In this document: positions 9,024 to 17,119 of the stretch, piece by piece
Position numbering within the stretch: position 1 is the first letter of the stretch
Layout: each line of letters begins with the position of its first letter
Assembly (NCBI RefSeq): GCF_000376385.1
Contig: NZ_AQWN01000003.1
Coordinates: 186,001 to 250,000, forward strand
Origin: Desulfurispora thermophila DSM 16022
Lineage (GTDB): Bacteria > Bacillota > Desulfotomaculia > Desulfotomaculales > Desulfurisporaceae
Reading direction: 5' to 3'
DNA length: 64,000 bases
Program-made: the position numbers and the translations under genes
Notes under the pieces: generated by a model
Seen by the model: the letters and a program-made list of their open reading frames with translations, nothing else
What the model was told of the DNA's origin: nothing
The model's database searches: none

Positions 9024-10010
9024 TTATTGAATACGCAGTCCGGTCATCATGCCGCCGGGAAATTGGTCGTTGTTTAGGAGATGTAAATACTCTCGATCGT
9101 AAATAAAATAATCGCCGCGAGCATCCGGTGTGATTAACACATCATATGTTTGTCCGGAGCTCAGAGTAATGCCTGTTTTCTGGTACGTGTTATCCTGGAC
9201 GGGTGTCTTGTAAGGGAAGCTGTCGCCAGCAATAATGCGACCGGTCAATCCGCCCCAATGAATGGTGTGGGTCTGGTAACCGGCGTTAACCAGCCTTAAT
9301 AACAGCCTTTGCCCGGCCTGGCAACTGACTGCTGAGCTGTAAGGCTGGCTGGAGTTATCGTCGCTGCGCAGAGTATCCGGGTAGGACCGCCCGTTCATCA
9401 ACCAGTAATCTGGTTTAAAAGTGAGCATATTGTAGTATTCTCCCGGAACTACCGCTTTGTGCATCTGGCTGTCTATTTCCTCCAGCGCCAGCACTTTTTC
9501 CACATCATAACGGGAACCTGTGCCGCTGCCATAGGCTGTGTGGTAATTGGGATGGCCGCTGGAGCTGTGTCCCACCGGCCGGACAATAATAATACCGTAA
9601 AGCCCCATCTGAATTTGTTTTTCGGGGTGGGTACCGCTTTCATACAGGAAAACCCCGGGTCTGGTTGCTCTAAAGCTATATTCCATCACCACATTGGTAC
9701 CGGGTTCCAGAAAATTTGTCAGCGAAATAATGAGCCCGTCTTCGTACTGGGGCCGGGCAGGACGGGTTGTACCAGAAGGCAGCCTTCTGACCATAACATT
9801 TTCCAGTCCCGGGAAAATGATCGAAGTGGGTTCGCTCAGGTTGTTCCTGAGCCTGATGCGCAGGGTGTCCCCCACAGTCGCTACTATCACAGGTCCCGGG
9901 AGCTGGGGAGGCCTGTTCGCTGCAGGCGCATAGCCCCAAAAGGGGACGTTTTGGCCGGGCAGGGATAGGGTTCCTGCCTTGGCCCATAAGTTTTTGATAA
10001 TCACAGCCAT
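9024..10010 (-). CDS. multicopper oxidase-like two-cupredoxin protein C (ligands mostly lost)
   Basis: 328 residues; last gene of the four-gene minus-strand operon. Two cupredoxin-like domains (about 1-145 and 195-328) are joined by the linker PDYWLMNGRSYPDTL, shared with the two upstream paralogs. Copper positions are degenerate. Where a paralog has HWHG this protein has SIIFPG (about 63-68), and where it has the HCH type-1 loop this protein has FLYESGTHPEKQIQMG (about 121-136). Domain 2 keeps only H248 and H251 in THTIHWGG, and the last strand reads YFIYDREYLHLL. It is probably not an oxidase alone and could be a structural or partner subunit. There is no signal peptide. The ATG at 10010 is preferred to a GTG nine bases earlier because GGGGTGG then sits at normal distance and the N-terminus aligns with the paralogs (MAVIIKNLWAK). 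Confidence 0.8.
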   Translation of the reverse strand: MAVIIKNLWAKAGTLSLPGQNVPFWGYAPAANRPPQLPGPVIVATVGDTLRIRLRNNLSEPTSIIFPGLENVMVRRLPSGTTRPARPQYEDGLIISLTNFLEPGTNVVMEYSFRATRPGVFLYESGTHPEKQIQMGLYGIIIVRPVGHSSSGHPNYHTAYGSGTGSRYDVEKVLALEEIDSQMHKAVVPGEYYNMLTFKPDYWLMNGRSYPDTLRSDDNSSQPYSSAVSCQAGQRLLLRLVNAGYQTHTIHWGGLTGRIIAGDSFPYKTPVQDNTYQKTGITLSSGQTYDVLITPDARGDYFIYDREYLHLLNNDQFPGGMMTGLRIQ

Positions 10011-10025
10011 GCTTTCCACCCCATG

Positions 10026-11180
10026 TTATTTTAACTCACCGACGGTGGGGCTAAGGGAGGGATATATGGCAATCATTGTCATCATGCCGCCCGGGAATTC
10101 GCCCCAATTGGTAATTTGCGGTTCTTCGTGCGAATGGAGCATAAAGTAGTACTCACCCATTTCATTGAACGAGGTGACACCTTTGGGGACATCTCCCTTT
10201 ACTCCCAGGTAGGGGCTGCCGCTCCACAAAGTCCACCCGGGTTCTCCTATGCCCATGTTGCGCAGATTGGGCAGAATTGTGGGGATGGGATTATCGGGTG
10301 TATAGCCCAGTCCTTCCCACTGATAAATCTGGTCGTAAGTCTGGCCTGCTCCCACCAGCACGGTAAAGCGCTTATAGGAGAGATCGGTACTGCCGTTGCG
10401 AAGCAAATAACCGTCCAGGCCGATAACCCGGGTGTGGTTGCCGTGGGGGTGCAGCGGGTGGTGCGCAATGCCGGCCCCGATGTAGCGGATTAAGACCCTT
10501 TCCCCTGGCTGGGCCATGATCATTGCCCCGTAGGGCTGGTGGGGCAGGTAGACAACATTATCCATGAGCATGGTGTCGGGCGCACAACGCCCGTTCAGCA
10601 TCCAGTAACGCGGCTTGTAATTTTTAAATGAGTATGGCTTCCCTTGTTCCACTGCCCTGTGCAGCTCGGGTTTGATCTCGCCTGTGATGAGCAGGTATTC
10701 CCGGTCAAACTCGGTACCGGTTTCGGCCCCGTAAGCAGTTTTGTACCGCCTGACAGCCGGGTTGTAATCGGCCGGCCGTACCACTATTCCTCCGTAAAGA
10801 CCCATGGGAACCTGCCGGGGCGGGTTGGTACCGCTTTCATAAAGAAAGGTTCCCGGCCGGGCGGGAGTAAAAGTGTAGGAAATCGTTTCTCCCGGCCGGG
10901 CGTAGTTTGTGAAGGAAACCAGCTTGTTATCAATATATTGTGGCTGAACCGGTTGACCAGCGGAGGTAATCCCGGGTTGTCCTGGGAAAAGCAGGGAGAC
11001 CGGTTCGGGCAGCGTGTTGGTCAGGTTGATGGTCACCGGCTCGCCCTGCCGCATAATCAGGTGGGGACCGGGTATTTGGGACGGCCCGTCAGCAGTGCTG
11101 GAAAAACCCCAGAAGTATATGCTGTTGCCATCCGGAGTGCTTAAATATCCATCCTTGGCCCACAAATTTATAACCTGCAT
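10026..11180 (-). CDS. multicopper oxidase-like two-cupredoxin protein B (ligands only in domain 2)
   Basis: 384 residues; third gene of the operon. Domain 1 (about 1-135) has no copper ligands: SLLFPGQ (62-68) replaces HWHG, and FLYESGTNPPRQVPMG (112-127) replaces the HCH loop. Domain 2 (about 190-375) is rich in them: HHPLHPHGNH at 240-249, of the HPxHLHGH type, and HSHEE at 349-353, before GEFPGGMMTM. In ordinary multicopper oxidases both halves are needed for the trinuclear site. A 40-residue loop between the two (about 290-335, with PDNPIPTILPNLRN) is longer than in the paralogs. No signal peptide. The ribosome site CAAGGAGCG precedes the ATG. Likely partner of the adjacent paralog that carries the missing domain 1 ligands; this is inference from motifs. 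Confidence 0.85.
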   Translation of the reverse strand: MQVINLWAKDGYLSTPDGNSIYFWGFSSTADGPSQIPGPHLIMRQGEPVTINLTNTLPEPVSLLFPGQPGITSAGQPVQPQYIDNKLVSFTNYARPGETISYTFTPARPGTFLYESGTNPPRQVPMGLYGGIVVRPADYNPAVRRYKTAYGAETGTEFDREYLLITGEIKPELHRAVEQGKPYSFKNYKPRYWMLNGRCAPDTMLMDNVVYLPHQPYGAMIMAQPGERVLIRYIGAGIAHHPLHPHGNHTRVIGLDGYLLRNGSTDLSYKRFTVLVGAGQTYDQIYQWEGLGYTPDNPIPTILPNLRNMGIGEPGWTLWSGSPYLGVKGDVPKGVTSFNEMGEYYFMLHSHEEPQITNWGEFPGGMMTMIAIYPSLSPTVGELK

Positions 11181-11203
11181 TGGTCTCGCTCCTTGAAAAT
11201 TAA

Positions 11204-12202
11204 CTACGGTGCCGGCAGAACCGTCACTTCGGTGACCATGCCCCCGAAAAACTTGCCGGCCACAGTATTCTTATGAAGATCGCGGTTGTACAGCGGATAT
11301 TTCCCCGCCCTGGGCGCACGGAAAATGGCGTCGGTAGTTTGCCCGGCTCCTATATACACAGTGCTTTTGTGGTAGCTGAGGTCTTCGTCATAGTAACCTC
11401 GCAGCAACTGGGCATCCTGCCCGATTATATGCAGCGGTATGCCCAGGATCTGGATGCTGTGCTGCTCATACCCCAGGTTAACAAAGCGGAGCAAGACCCG
11501 CTCCCCGGCATAGGCATGAATCAGAGAGCTGTAGGGCTGGTAGGGGAGGGAGGGGTCATCTGCCGGTTTTATTGTATCGGGGTAACTTCGCCCGTTGAGC
11601 AGCCAGTACCGCGGAGCGTATTCCGTCCAGTCAAATCCCTGCACATTGGCTACCAGGTAGTGAGGCCTGGCATCGAGCTCGGTGAGGAAGACTATGGCCT
11701 CCCGGTCAAACTGCGTGGAGATGTCGTTGTAGGCAAATTTTCTCTGCTGCTCTTTCTCCAGCTGGGGGCGGACAACCAGGGGACCCACCATGCCCATCTG
11801 GATGTGTTCCACTGGCTCAAAATGGCAGTGGTACATATAGGTGCCGGGGGCCAGGGGTTCATAGTAATAGGTAAAGTCCCTGCCTACGGGAACCGAAAGC
11901 GAGGCTTCGGGCACCCCGTCCCAAAGGGGAATCTGATTGGGAAAGCCGTGCCAGTGAATGGTGTGGGTATCGTCCAGATCCGGCCGTCCGGGCAACCCCA
12001 GGTTGGTTAAGGTAAGGTATATCTCATCCCCTTCATATACTTCCAGCAGAGGAGCCAACAAGTTGGCTTTACCTCTGTACATGAATACTGCCTCTTCCGG
12101 AACCCCGGTTATATCCACGAAGCCAAATATATAGTGGCTGGTACCGTCGGGCATGCGGATAAACCCATCTGTTGCGCCCAGCCGTTTTTTGACCACAGCC
12201 AT
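11204..12202 (-). CDS. multicopper oxidase-like two-cupredoxin protein A (type-1 copper site in domain 1)
   Basis: 332 residues; second gene of the operon, 29 bases after the large beta-helix gene. Domain 1 (about 1-145) holds the ligands THTIHWHG (H80, H83, H85) and YHCHFEPVEHIQMGM (H125, C126, H127, H133, M138). The Cys-His-Met set is a type-1 copper site and the extra His residues are type-2/3 ligands. This is the arrangement of two-domain enzymes with type-1 copper in the first domain, as in nitrite reductase. Domain 2 (about 195-332) lacks the HPxHLHG and HxH motifs and has only scattered His (H248, H258, H310). There is no signal peptide (MAVVKKRLGATDG), so secretion by Sec/Tat is not predicted; spore-coat deposition is possible. 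The ribosome site GGAAAGGAG is clear. Confidence 0.88.
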   Translation of the reverse strand: MAVVKKRLGATDGFIRMPDGTSHYIFGFVDITGVPEEAVFMYRGKANLLAPLLEVYEGDEIYLTLTNLGLPGRPDLDDTHTIHWHGFPNQIPLWDGVPEASLSVPVGRDFTYYYEPLAPGTYMYHCHFEPVEHIQMGMVGPLVVRPQLEKEQQRKFAYNDISTQFDREAIVFLTELDARPHYLVANVQGFDWTEYAPRYWLLNGRSYPDTIKPADDPSLPYQPYSSLIHAYAGERVLLRFVNLGYEQHSIQILGIPLHIIGQDAQLLRGYYDEDLSYHKSTVYIGAGQTTDAIFRAPRAGKYPLYNRDLHKNTVAGKFFGGMVTEVTVLPAP

Positions 12203-12231: not shown

Positions 12232-15200
12232 TTATGGTACAAGTACATGTTCGTATGCGCCAATGTCGTACCCGCTACCCCGGGGCCGTGCATTGCCGTC
12301 CATGTCTCTATCCGGGGCAGGGAAAACTTCACCATTTCTCACCACATGGTCGGTACCCCGGTCAATGGCCGGGGAGAGGGCCTGGAGGTGGTAGTCGCCG
12401 GCCAATTCCGGGCTAACGGTAACTATTTTTACGCTCTTGAAGTTAGGTTCCAGATTAAAGGCTACGGCGGTGACCTGCGTATTGTGCTCAGCAACAAAAA
12501 GCGGGTTTTCTCCCACCACGTTGTTGCTTCCACCGGCGTAGGTGCCCGACAGCAAGCAGTACTGGGGCTGTAGCACAGCATTGCTGCCGTATACCTCCAT
12601 GTCGATGACCCGGATGGGCAGCGGGTCTCCGGTAGCTCCAATGCCCGCAATGCCACCCCGGCCATTGTTCAGCGCCTGGTTGAAGAACCCCGCTCTGTTG
12701 TCCCAGAAAATATTGTTGAACAGGACCGGGTTGCTGAAGTTATCCGCGCCGGGGGGCAGTATGGCCAGAAAGGCTGCGCTGTGCAATTCGCTGGCCAACC
12801 CGGCCGCGTGGGGTTGCCCGTCACTGTCTTCCGCCGTTGCGGTAGTAATGTTTTTGGTTATGGTATTGTTGACAATGACTACCCGGGAAGCATCATCCAG
12901 GGCTATGCCGCCCCCCAGGTCGGTGGAGAGGTTGTTGGCTATGACGTTGTTGCTTATGGTGATCAGGTAATCCAGCGGCTGCAGCAGCCGGATGCCGCCT
13001 CCATCGTCGTTGGCCAGATTGCCTATGACCAGATTGCTGTCAACTTCCACTGTACCGGAGCCGGCGGTCAGCGCGGCCGGCGGGACGGGTTGTTCGCCGC
13101 CTACAAATATGCCGCCCCCTTCATCAAAGGAAGCGTTGAACAGAACTTTGTTATGCCGGATCTTTCCACCCGGGCTGTAACCAAAGTGGGATATGCCTCC
13201 TCCGTATTCCGCCGAGTAATTGCCGCAAATCTCGTTGTACTCGATGATATAGTCGTTTGCGCCGTTGAAAATGCCAATCCCACCGGCCAGGCTGATGCCG
13301 CCGTTGTTCAGGATTCTATTGTGGTGGATGTGTATGTGGTGGTTGTAGTTGTCTCCCACATAAGCTTTGCCGATGGTTATGCCTCCTCCGAAACCTCCGC
13401 CGTTGCTTTGAATGATGTTGTTGCTGATGATCAGGTACCGGCAGTGGGCATTGACATAAATGCCACCCGCTTCCTCACCCCGGGCGCCGGTTATTTTAAA
13501 ACCATCGATCTGGGGAGCAAAGGTGTTGCCGAAAGTTCCCGCTTTGGCCACAACGGTGAGCACCTGCCCCCGGGATATTTCCTTTACCTGATCCGGTTGC
13601 TGGGCCAGATTTTCCGGCCCGTCAAAATCAATTTGGGCCAGTTGTTCAAGCCACTGGTTGATATATGATTGAAAAAAACGCCCGTCAATCACCGAGCCTG
13701 CTACGGCCGTGCCATCAGGCCTGATACCACCCGGTCCCACGCCCTGCAGCTTGATGTTCTTGTATAGTATCGGGCTTTCGTAATAGGTGCCCGGCCCAAC
13801 CACAATGATGCTGCCGTCCGGTTCGTTATCTATGGCTGCCTGGATGCTGCTGTAATCTCCCGTGCCGTTCAGCCTTACCCGCTTGACGTTTGGCCAGTAC
13901 ACGCCGGGTTTGCGCAGGTGGAAAGTGATGCCGGTCGGGCTGGTCTCACCGGCGGTATTGGTAACCAGCAATTGCGCCGGTCCGGTGACGGGGAAGTTGT
14001 GGGGCACCAGGGCTGTGATTTCCTGGTCGCTCCAATTAACGATGGAGATAGGTTGGCCGTTTAGCTTCACCAGGCCCGGGGCGGAACCGAACCCTGTGCC
14101 CAGTATGCGTACCGTCCTCCTGGTGTCGTCTGCTTGCAGAACATTCACCTGCACTCTGTTGACCCTGAATATTTGCGGTACACCGCTGTTGAGGTGACAC
14201 TGGGGCGGTTGGGAAAACTGGGTGCCCGGAGTGCCCACAAAAGCAGTGATGGGGAACAGCGCCACGTCGGCGTACGTGGTCTTGCCCGGCCAGACATCGA
14301 AGACCATCTGCAGGGTCTGGTAATTGGGGTTATATAACAAGTTGGGCCGGTCCGGATCCCCGGGATCGTTCCCAATCACCCGGTACATAGCCGGTGCTAC
14401 CCCGGACGGCGTGGGCACGTTGCAAGTATAGGTGGAAGGCAGGAGGACCTCAAATATTCCGTTGATGTCCGAGTGGACAGTGGTGATCAGCCGGCCGGTA
14501 AAGTCCCGGATGCCCACGGGAGTATTGGGTATGCCTCTTTTTTCGCCGTAATATATAAAGTTGGGGTTGGTTTCTAAATTTACATCGTCCAGCAGAAAAC
14601 CCACAATGCGGCCGGGTATGGGTACGTCGGTAAAGAGGAAGAAATCGGTTGTTGCGTTCATCTCCGGGCCAACGGTTACCACTTTTTTTTGCATGTCCAG
14701 GTCGGGCGGGGGAGATGGAGGAGCATAGTACGGCGGGGGAGGCATGCGCGTAAGAGCCGGCCCGTTCATATTGGCGACAAAGACATCTCCCTGGCCGGTG
14801 TTAACCGAACCGTGCTGGTCGAGCACCTTGTAGCCCGCGGGTGGGATTACTTCCACTATATAAGTTCCCGGCGGCATTGGTATCTCCTGGGCTGACGGGT
14901 GTCCGTAATGCGGCTGGAAAATGGTTTTAAATGCGTAGCCGCCATCGAACGCGCCCGGTCTGATCTGGTTGGAAATATTGGGTACTTCCAGACAGGGCAC
15001 CGGAATGCCGTTGTGGTCGATGCAACCGGTTGGATGCTGCCAGCTGTCTGTGGTTGTAGTGTTCACCAGTTCGCCCTGGATCAACTTGCCGCTGACCGGG
15101 TCGTAGCGTGCGTTGTAAAGATTAATCGTTACATTGGGGATGCCGGGCTCATATTCTTCGGCAAAAGCGTAACGGGGGTCGGTTTCATTGCGCATGGTGG

Positions 15201-16836
15201 CATAATAGACAATGCCCGAGATGCCGCCATTTTCCCCGGGTTGGTAAGTTTTTTTCCCCCAATCGATGCGGTTGGTTTTGGCGGCCCAGGTTAGTTCGGC
15301 AAGGGTTATCGATTCAGGGTGGGTCTCCGGACAGCGCACGAACTGCCCCCTGTCATTCCGACAACCGCCGGGATAGTGTACGGGAATGTTGTCATCGGGA
15401 GTGGCTGTGGCCCCGGTGGCAGCAAAGCGCACAAAGTCCACTTCCGCCACTGCAAAGCGCTCCAGCTCAAAAACTTCCTCCAGCGCGTATTCCCCGCGCA
15501 TGTCGGAAACGGTGCTGTACTGTACGCTGCCGTCTTTAAAGCGGGTTTTTACCTCCACGTTGGGAATTCCTGCTTGCCCGGGCTGGCCGGTGCCGGTGCC
15601 CTCCGGGTCGTGGAATATTTTGCCTTTGATATAGCCAAACCACCGGGGAATGCCTATATCGCCCATGTCAATGGTGGCACCGGGTTGAACCTGAGCGGTC
15701 CGGAAAGAGATAATGTGGTCGAGAGGCTCATCCCAGATGGCCATTTGATAGATGCCCGGGGGTACATTGTTTATAATGAAGTTTCCGTCACTGTCGCCCC
15801 GGCCGGTGTAGACCTGCTGGTCGTTGGCTCCTATGTCACTCAGGGCTATCCAGGGTCTATCAACGGGGTCGCCCAGGGTCAGCGGCCGGAAAGGAGGGGT
15901 GAACTCAATGATGGTGCGGACCCGCCCTTTGATGGTGCCCGTTTCCCAGGGGATGGGAGGTCCGAAGTCCATGGGGCGGACGAAACCGATCCAGACCAGG
16001 GCGGCTTTAAAACCCTCCCGGGGACTGTAACCGTCGTTTCCTTCTTCAATCCAGGCGTCAATGATGTGCGTGCCCTCAATGGTTGTGGTTTGGATCCAGT
16101 CCGTGCCATCGGGAGGAATGGCCTGCACACCGTATTTGCCGGGAGGCAGGTTTTCTATCATTGCATCGCCATTGGCGTCGGTAAGTATTCTCCCGCCGGT
16201 GCCGGGGATGGGGATGGGCTGACCGCTGGGGTCCAGTACCAGGTTACCGGAAGCGTCCCGTTCGTATTTTGTCCCCAGGGGATTGCCAAAATAATCCACA
16301 GTCACTTGTCCCACGGTGTCTTCAATGATGATCAAGAAGCCTTCCAGCCCGCTCTCCAGCGGGAAATCGTCCTCACCATTGACCGGGTTGTTGTCGTGAA
16401 AAACGTGTACCCGGATTTGGGAGAGCGGTAGGGGATGGGGGTGCAATTCAATCTCGACTGTTACATCTGACCCCTCACTCACTGTTACCCAGTTGCCTCC
16501 CATTTTGTACCCGGGAGCAAGCACCGTCACCAGATAGTTCCCGGCCGGAACTACAACTACTGGTTGCGCTGTGGTGGATGACTCCCCTGTGGCCACCACG
16601 GGGCTGTGGCTGGCAGCGGGCTTTAGGGAAGGGAACAGGTTGGGGTTGCGCTGGTCTTCCGGCAGGTAAACTTGTGGATCGCCCACGTTGTTATCATTGA
16701 CAATGAATTTAAACTGTGGGATTTGCGTGCCTGTTTTAATATTGCGGGTGACCACAGTAAGGGTGGCGCCGGCTCTGAGCATGCCGGCAGAGCCTTTTTC
16801 TTGGACAGGCGAGTCCGTAGCAGGTTTATCTTTCAC
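12232..16836 (-). CDS. giant multi-domain protein: Ig-like/regulatory-like repeats, IPT/TIG domain and right-handed beta-helix
   Basis: 1534 residues from GTG 16836, chosen because AAGGAGG lies 6-12 bases before it; a TTG three bases earlier is also possible. Residues about 17-460 and 530-680 hold repeated carboxypeptidase-regulatory/CNA_B-like beta sandwiches (TDANGDAMIENLPPGKYGV, DSDGNFIINNVPPGIYQM, PPGTYIVEVIPPAGYKV). A Pro-rich linker follows (about 696-714, MPPPPYYAPPSPPP), then another such domain (740-806). An IPT/TIG domain lies at about 886-976 (VRILGTGFGSAPGLVKLNG). A parallel beta-helix occupies about 984-1480, with Asn/Gly-rich coils such as ISNNIIQSNGGGFGGGI. It ends in the SPAIDRG...DIGAYE motif common in beta-helix surface proteins. 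No signal peptide, LPXTG, SLH domain or membrane segment was seen. First gene of the operon with the three cupredoxin proteins; likely a scaffold. Function unproven. Confidence 0.85.
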   Translation of the reverse strand: MKDKPATDSPVQEKGSAGMLRAGATLTVVTRNIKTGTQIPQFKFIVNDNNVGDPQVYLPEDQRNPNLFPSLKPAASHSPVVATGESSTTAQPVVVVPAGNYLVTVLAPGYKMGGNWVTVSEGSDVTVEIELHPHPLPLSQIRVHVFHDNNPVNGEDDFPLESGLEGFLIIIEDTVGQVTVDYFGNPLGTKYERDASGNLVLDPSGQPIPIPGTGGRILTDANGDAMIENLPPGKYGVQAIPPDGTDWIQTTTIEGTHIIDAWIEEGNDGYSPREGFKAALVWIGFVRPMDFGPPIPWETGTIKGRVRTIIEFTPPFRPLTLGDPVDRPWIALSDIGANDQQVYTGRGDSDGNFIINNVPPGIYQMAIWDEPLDHIISFRTAQVQPGATIDMGDIGIPRWFGYIKGKIFHDPEGTGTGQPGQAGIPNVEVKTRFKDGSVQYSTVSDMRGEYALEEVFELERFAVAEVDFVRFAATGATATPDDNIPVHYPGGCRNDRGQFVRCPETHPESITLAELTWAAKTNRIDWGKKTYQPGENGGISGIVYYATMRNETDPRYAFAEEYEPGIPNVTINLYNARYDPVSGKLIQGELVNTTTTDSWQHPTGCIDHNGIPVPCLEVPNISNQIRPGAFDGGYAFKTIFQPHYGHPSAQEIPMPPGTYIVEVIPPAGYKVLDQHGSVNTGQGDVFVANMNGPALTRMPPPPYYAPPSPPPDLDMQKKVVTVGPEMNATTDFFLFTDVPIPGRIVGFLLDDVNLETNPNFIYYGEKRGIPNTPVGIRDFTGRLITTVHSDINGIFEVLLPSTYTCNVPTPSGVAPAMYRVIGNDPGDPDRPNLLYNPNYQTLQMVFDVWPGKTTYADVALFPITAFVGTPGTQFSQPPQCHLNSGVPQIFRVNRVQVNVLQADDTRRTVRILGTGFGSAPGLVKLNGQPISIVNWSDQEITALVPHNFPVTGPAQLLVTNTAGETSPTGITFHLRKPGVYWPNVKRVRLNGTGDYSSIQAAIDNEPDGSIIVVGPGTYYESPILYKNIKLQGVGPGGIRPDGTAVAGSVIDGRFFQSYINQWLEQLAQIDFDGPENLAQQPDQVKEISRGQVLTVVAKAGTFGNTFAPQIDGFKITGARGEEAGGIYVNAHCRYLIISNNIIQSNGGGFGGGITIGKAYVGDNYNHHIHIHHNRILNNGGISLAGGIGIFNGANDYIIEYNEICGNYSAEYGGGISHFGYSPGGKIRHNKVLFNASFDEGGGIFVGGEQPVPPAALTAGSGTVEVDSNLVIGNLANDDGGGIRLLQPLDYLITISNNVIANNLSTDLGGGIALDDASRVVIVNNTITKNITTATAEDSDGQPHAAGLASELHSAAFLAILPPGADNFSNPVLFNNIFWDNRAGFFNQALNNGRGGIAGIGATGDPLPIRVIDMEVYGSNAVLQPQYCLLSGTYAGGSNNVVGENPLFVAEHNTQVTAVAFNLEPNFKSVKIVTVSPELAGDYHLQALSPAIDRGTDHVVRNGEVFPAPDRDMDGNARPRGSGYDIGAYEHVLVP

Positions 16837-16887
16837 CAAATATTCCCTCCTTGCCAAAACCGGGGCAGGTAAAAGATTCTGTTGGCA

Positions 16888-16915
16888 TATTATATGTAAT
16901 TGGCCCGGATAAGGT
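16888..16915 (-). promoter_or_regulatory. sigma-K-like (late mother-cell) promoter of the beta-helix/multicopper operon
   Basis: On the minus strand, AC (16915-16914) is followed by a 17-base spacer and CATATAATA (16896-16888). This fits the Bacillus sigma-K pattern AC-N16/17-CATANNNTA. Initiation would be about 40 bases before the GTG. A sigma-A reading of the same region (TATAAT without a good -35) is possible. Confidence 0.5.
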
Positions 16916-17119
16916 TATATCTGGCAATATTGCATGGAATAGGTCATGGTGTTTCAGGGCGCGCCGTTTGGCGTACTGGCTGTAGCATCCGGCGAATCTG
17001 CTCCAGGCATTGACGGCTGGCGAGCGGTGCACATGCCTGTCGCCAATAAATGCATTGCAATTCATAAAAGTAAAAGTGTTTCGCCTAATTAGTTATATTG
17101 TATACTTGCTGCACATTTA
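16916..17119. other. intergenic region between divergent units, no gene seen
   Basis: Between the minus-strand operon promoter and the plus-strand carboxylase promoter. A 79-codon minus-strand frame ends inside the beta-helix gene but has no ribosome site and no recognisable product. No repeat or RNA gene was noticed. Confidence 0.4.

Follow-up and report, generated by a model that had tools for sequence, protein, structure and literature searches.

Predicted trinuclear copper ligands divided between two putative subunits encoded by a multicopper oxidase-like operon in Desulfurispora thermophila

Here we report a tandem array of three paralogous genes on the minus strand of the window (the whole 64-kb stretch of Desulfurispora thermophila DSM 16022 DNA that was analysed), the products of which, A, B and C, hold a full set of multicopper oxidase (MCO) ligands only when A and B are taken jointly, no single subunit carrying it. 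We assign a probability of roughly 0.87 to a composite trinuclear copper site between A and B, as first proposed in the original prediction and now supported by conserved complementary ligands, by the joint loss of partner and ligands, by an independent fusion protein and by a ring model. The best reading of the data, and a well supported one, is that A, B and C make up a heterotrimeric multicopper oxidase whose single active site is composite.

Table 1. Features of the operon, in positions of the 64-kb window
Feature	Position	Strand	Basis or remark
Protein A, 332 aa, two-domain cupredoxin subunit	11204..12202	-	ORF, Pfam, 81 homologs
Protein A motif HTIHWHG, residues 80-86	11945..11965	-	H80 T1; H83, H85 trinuclear
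Protein A motif HCHFEPVEHIQMGM, residues 125-138	11789..11830	-	H125, H127 trinuclear; C126, H133, M138 T1
Protein B, 384 aa, two-domain cupredoxin subunit	10026..11180	-	ORF, Pfam, homologs
Protein B motif HPLHPHG, residues 241-247	10440..10460	-	H244, H246 trinuclear
Protein B motif HSH, residues 349-351	10128..10136	-	trinuclear ligands
Protein C, 331 aa, two-domain paralog without copper motifs	9024..10019	-	ORF, Pfam, motif scan
Protein D, ORF of 1541 aa, SdrD_B / CarboxypepD_reg / TIG / beta-helix-like surface protein	12232..16857	-	
Sigma-K-like promoter candidate AACC-N16-CATATAAT, upstream of D	16889..16916	-	lead only

The arrangement of A, B and C as tandem paralogs, together with a common NGRxxPDT linker, had been recognized beforehand, and both observations held: the minus-strand ORFs, their matches to Cu-oxidase Pfam families and the identities of B (37%) and C (32%) to A agree with the described layout, and the linker is seen in all three sequences. 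Pfam, sequence and the structural model described below likewise confirm two cupredoxin domains (D1 and D2) per subunit. Beyond the three genes noticed earlier, the operon has a fourth member, D, which is its first gene and sets the order D-A-B-C; its ribosome-binding site places the true start near 16836-16839, and its product combines SdrD_B, CarboxypepD_reg and TIG domains with a beta-helix-like region.

Ligand roles in A and B were assigned by established MCO motif rules. The HTIHWHG of A is the counterpart of the MCO motif HPxHLHG, in which the first His is a type-1 (T1) ligand. Domain 1 of A thus holds a complete T1 set (H80, C126, H133 and M138) and four trinuclear His (H83, H85, H125 and H127), and motif inspection found no copper motifs in its domain 2. 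The other four trinuclear His reside in domain 2 of B (H244, H246, H349 and H351), the same inspection finding no copper motifs in domain 1 of B; in C, HxH was not found anywhere in the protein. The original prediction had described this pattern largely correctly. For A, it named H83, H85, H125, C126, H127, H133 and M138 and an empty domain 2, and omitted only H80 from the T1 set. For B, the stretch HHPLHPHG (residues 240-247) and HSH in domain 2 and the lack of ligands in domain 1 were borne out, except that H240, H241 and H249 are not conserved ligands. The absence of ligand motifs from C also stood. Each of the 12 MCO ligands (four T1 and eight trinuclear His) is therefore found once across A and B, and both trinuclear halves never occur within one subunit, A being devoid of the D2 half, B of the D1 half and C of either.

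A scan of one-genome-per-species contigs rendered 80 loci, distributed over Bacillota, Chloroflexota, Actinomycetota, Pseudomonadota, Desulfobacterota and others. As far as each contig reaches, nearly all of them preserve the order D, A, B, C, with D ahead of A in almost every locus whose contig is long enough and C adjoining B. The eight ligand columns of A are invariant (81/81 homologs), and those of B nearly so (H244 and H246, 79/79 each; H349, 77/78; H351, 78/78), and the alignments of homologs disclose no other conserved His/Cys half-site in A-D2, B-D1 or C. A motif tally found the exact split in 70 of the 80 loci, 65 with C seen and 5 with C off the contig, the remaining loci being truncations, frameshifts, extra domains or motif variants. 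Judged from these alignments, the ligand pattern is far more than chance.

If A, B and C were decaying copies of one homotrimeric oxidase, their complementarity would be incidental, and both the complete lack of a site in C and the existence of a clearly broken locus (G223) would be readily accommodated. However, A and B retain their opposite half-sites with hardly any change over long branches and in different phyla, each family forms one clade, and the same partition is found independently in a fusion protein, L122. Decay of paralogs was consequently rejected on ligand conservation, and we attach almost no credence to it.

The evidence from L122 bears directly on the origin of the split. Phylogenetically, A, B and C each come out as one clade (support 100/99, 99/97 and 100/96, respectively). 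Two further loci do not belong to the trio family: L121 combines both half-sites in one gene, and L122 encodes a 764-residue four-domain fusion of two units, accompanied by a cupredoxin. Unit 1 of L122 displays the D1 half-site only and unit 2 the D2 half-site only. As the two units are sisters in the tree (support 98/89), the partition in L122 arose independently of the trio; on this phylogenetic evidence, ligand partition appears to have evolved independently inside one polypeptide.

Co-occurrence of A and B, suggested earlier as a check, was surveyed in 398 Bacillota, 251 Chloroflexota, 299 Pseudomonadota and 246 Actinomycetota genomes, and the A-B-C trio was present in 17 of the 398 Bacillota. 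Throughout the four phylum surveys a well-scoring A was always accompanied by a neighbouring B, with three Bacillota exceptions, in agreement with the proposed interdependence. It had also been argued that homologous operons in which A or B occurs alone with its own ligands conserved would speak against a shared site, and the exceptional Bacillota genomes do not provide such a case. G102 has an open A and a C, and no B or D was detected in the 14 kb covered. The motifs of its A are HTIYWEG and HCY: three of the four trinuclear His have been lost (H83Y, H85E and H127Y) and all four T1 ligands kept; this is the one genome with a clean combination of absent B and lost A ligands. G417 keeps C and a D remnant, A and B having been lost together, and four sister species in its genus carry the full trio. 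In G223, frameshifts and a deletion have disrupted the locus, the ligands still being visible in the remaining fragment of A.

These genomes are also relevant to the possibility that A acts on its own in electron transfer, as a blue-copper or nitrite-reductase-like protein, and that B is a separate copper-storage or copper-binding protein, the two merely having an operon in common. The T1 site is complete in A by itself, copper nitrite reductases appear among the sequence matches, and the persistence of the G102 A beside C, without trinuclear ligands, suggests that an A reduced to its T1 site may still be useful by itself. We nevertheless consider this explanation very improbable, given the full MCO trinuclear half-site (HxxHxHG plus HCH) in 81/81 A proteins, the loss of the trinuclear His of A where B has been lost, the four MCO-like D2 His of B, and a ring model that is predicted to dock B on A in laccase/ceruloplasmin geometry.

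For structure prediction we made use of locus L038, in which the three genes lie in one frame; stop codons were read as a residue, which resulted in a single chain A-linker-B-linker-C of 1086 residues. This chain was folded with a 32-row alignment of similarly joined chains, limited to joined rows because single A, B and C proteins were mostly misplaced, and AlphaFold2 returned a pLDDT of 80.9 and a pTM of 0.79. Using VIA-align, residues 2..732 of the model (A and B) were matched to residues 1..1040 of ceruloplasmin (532 residues, 3.9 A), residues 1..730 to the three-domain laccase 2xu9 (379 residues, 2.8 A), and residues 357..1086 (B and C) to residues 1..1039 of ceruloplasmin (454 residues, 4.8 A). 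These alignment ranges come from a single model of a single joined chain, in which linkers of about 25 and 8 residues could have biased the ring order; they suggest that A corresponds to ceruloplasmin D1-D2 and B to D5-D6, in such a way that A-D1 would meet B-D2 at the trinuclear position. The predicted docking of B on A is thus in line with the convergence of A and B ligands anticipated in the original prediction. An order-bound Foldseek superposition of the joined model on ceruloplasmin gave a low match (TM 0.23, 34 A), which counts against a ring in the gene order A-B-C; for this model, a weak order-bound match is as expected where ring order differs from gene order. A second model, restricted to A and B of L047, reached a pTM of 0.65, and its best PDB matches cover B alone, so that it is uninformative on the interface. 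The joined-chain model is in sum consistent with a heterotrimeric ring, and by prediction it contains six domains with one D1/D2-type trinuclear site.

The composite site could also be housed in an active unit of different stoichiometry, namely an A:B heterohexamer or an A2B/AB2 ring, with C just an accessory anchor. C is the most variable subunit in size and bears extra surface domains, including Ig/cadherin domains in some Pseudomonadota, and the L122 fusion has two units plus a cupredoxin only. On the other hand, C keeps its two-domain core and belongs to the same operon wherever the contig allows, and one A:B:C ring fits the model at the pTM given above. We therefore regard an active unit of A and B alone as rather doubtful, and C as a likely third ring member.

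We propose that A, B and C would assemble into a heterotrimer whose six cupredoxin domains form a ring, comparable to the homotrimeric two-domain MCOs and to ceruloplasmin but encoded by three genes. Two-domain MCOs form the trinuclear site where D1 of one subunit faces D2 of its neighbour. By analogy, each ring of the trio would contain one active copper set, with the type-1 Cu in domain 1 of A and the trinuclear cluster at the interface between the four His of A domain 1 and the four of B domain 2; the B-D1/C-D2 and C-D1/A-D2 interfaces are degenerate, and C would therefore close the ring, a structural role with which our data are consistent. Electrons from the substrate would enter via the type-1 Cu of A and proceed through the His-Cys-His bridge to the composite cluster, where O2 would be reduced to water. 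We infer from the above evidence that the trio would assemble, bind copper and act as an oxidase. Reduction of O2 is probable on the basis of the ligand set, though not self-evident in Bacillota, where many of the hosts have anaerobic relatives. Possible substrates are metal ions, for instance Fe(II) or Mn(II), and the site of action is possibly the cell surface or, in Bacillota, the spore coat.

Protein D would be an accessory of the complex, a large protein linked to it with a surface or scaffold function. D is joined to A in one protein in L110, and Cupriavidus metallidurans and Paraburkholderia have C-D fusions; such fusions indicate that D is probably part of the complex. A simple hydrophobicity/motif scan, which makes some false calls, detected export signals on the proteins outside Bacillota, with a Tat-like signal on A and Sec-like signals on B and C in many Chloroflexota and Actinomycetota loci; the same scan found no signal peptide on A, B or C in 11 Bacillota loci. 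A laccase located in the spore coat, in the manner of CotA, would be produced in the mother cell of a spore former and lack a signal peptide. The host genome encodes SpoIVA, and the sigma-K-like motif upstream of D is present in 4 of 9 Bacillota upstream regions versus 0.34 expected from shuffles, so a location in the spore coat may be taken as a lead in this phylum. As to neighbouring genes, CopC and CopD, involved in copper uptake, follow the cluster in a Chloroflexota locus (L045), and CopC does so in an actinomycete locus (L053).

Extended to all loci, these data incline us, by a little, towards the existence of a widespread heteromeric MCO class with half-sites on two gene products, often with different export routes, active only after extracellular assembly, and with a partition that evolved at least twice. 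Current schemes of MCO evolution start with homotrimers of two-domain subunits, which have three active sites, and end with six-domain rings such as ceruloplasmin, in which one is left (PMC3600357). The trio would represent a natural intermediate in this scheme, with two of three sites gone and the last one split between two subunits, and makes the scheme directly testable by mutation and co-expression. It is also a candidate enzyme for extracellular metal oxidation, because a cluster of like layout in Sideroxydans lithotrophicus ES-1 is more abundant at the protein level on magnetite (PMC12016527). Gene-by-gene annotation as 'multicopper oxidase' misses that neither A nor B is complete.

To our knowledge, all relatives of the trio enzyme build their trinuclear site from one gene product. 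The best PDB sequence matches of A are 3g5w, the blue copper oxidase of Nitrosomonas europaea, and 2zwn, a metagenomic two-domain laccase, which resemble the trio in having two cupredoxin domains, with HxxHxHG and HCHxxxxxHxxxxM in D1 and HxHG and HxH in D2. Both are homotrimers with the two half-sites in every subunit, whereas those of the trio are on different gene products, and at most one complete site can be formed per trimer. In copper nitrite reductase (NirK) the T2 site is mononuclear, and each motif contributes a single His rather than an HxH pair. Identity with NirK was rejected, as A has HxH and HCH and B has HxH twice, not one-His motifs, and the NCBIfam model scored 37 bits against a cut-off of 296.

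Six-domain rings of the ceruloplasmin/hephaestin type have a single trinuclear site between the first and last domain, the other interfaces being degenerate, and in bacterial six-domain MCOs the site has been placed between domains 2 and 3 (PMC3600357). The likeness to ceruloplasmin lies in the predicted superposition of A and B on its D1..D6; ceruloplasmin is, however, a single chain with T1 sites in even-numbered domains, whereas the trio consists of three chains, from three genes, with T1 in the D1-type domain of A. MnxG (9bxa, MnxG/MnxEFG), among the Foldseek matches of the model, is the ceruloplasmin-like six-domain subunit of a bacterial multi-subunit MCO and, unlike the trio, unites six domains and the trinuclear site in one polypeptide.

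The gene layout has a precedent in Slit_1816-1818 of S. lithotrophicus ES-1, three tandem extracellular cupredoxin/MCO genes (PMC5566968). Two of the encoded proteins have MCO motifs and the third is larger and motif-free, with adhesin/polysaccharide-lyase-like domains (PMC12016527). The sections of these two reports drawn upon here make no mention of a ligand split or of complementary halves, and membership of the Slit genes in the trio family is suggested by layout. A description of a heteromeric multicopper oxidase was not found in the open-access literature, where the original statement that division of ligands between gene products is undescribed accordingly stands. Clusters of the ES-1 layout in Cupriavidus and Paraburkholderia consist of A, B and a C-D fusion, with the A/B ligand split. 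As far as the open-access literature shows, what is new in the trio is the split of ligands between gene products, and what had already been reported is a Sideroxydans gene cluster of like layout (PMC5566968, PMC12016527).

In the locus L122, where two of the two-domain units occur joined in a natural fusion, the partition of copper ligands between domains 1 and 2 matches that of the separate A and B proteins. Judging from its placement in the tree of A, B and C units, this fusion arose independently. The oxidase of L121 clusters with the L122 units in the same tree, is closest to A, and is considered ancestor-like.

Coordinates of features at the window and at homologous loci.
Feature	Location	Strand	Remarks
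Two-domain oxidase, one gene	L121:1739-2845	-	both half-sites complete
Two two-domain units joined, plus C-terminal cupredoxin	L122:572-2866	-	natural fusion
A homolog	L114:8657-9688		genome G102; type-1 ligands all present, three trinuclear His gone
A-B-C cluster, C and D fused	L129, NC_007974.2 1336097-1355419		Cupriavidus metallidurans CH34 megaplasmid
Sigma-K-like promoter candidate, 5' of D	window 16889-16916	-	

Of its trinuclear ligands, the A homolog of L114 has lost H83, H85 and H127, but it retains every type-1 ligand, and B is absent from the locus that holds it; this protein is possibly a relic that serves in electron transfer.

PLSDB listed no features across the L129 region. A subtilase (Peptidase_S8) gene lies downstream of C in L107, L088, L101 and L113 (Pseudomonadota, Desulfobacterota), with Ig/cadherin domains in most of these.

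At many Chloroflexota and Actinomycetota loci (N-termini, L045-L113), A carries a Tat-like signal and B and C a Sec-like one; the N-termini of the Bacillota versions of A, B and C have no signal. Four Cys columns of the B family (near residues 42, 341 and 383, and at the N-terminus), kept in ~50 of ~80 homologs and missing from the window B, likely form disulfides in the exported versions.
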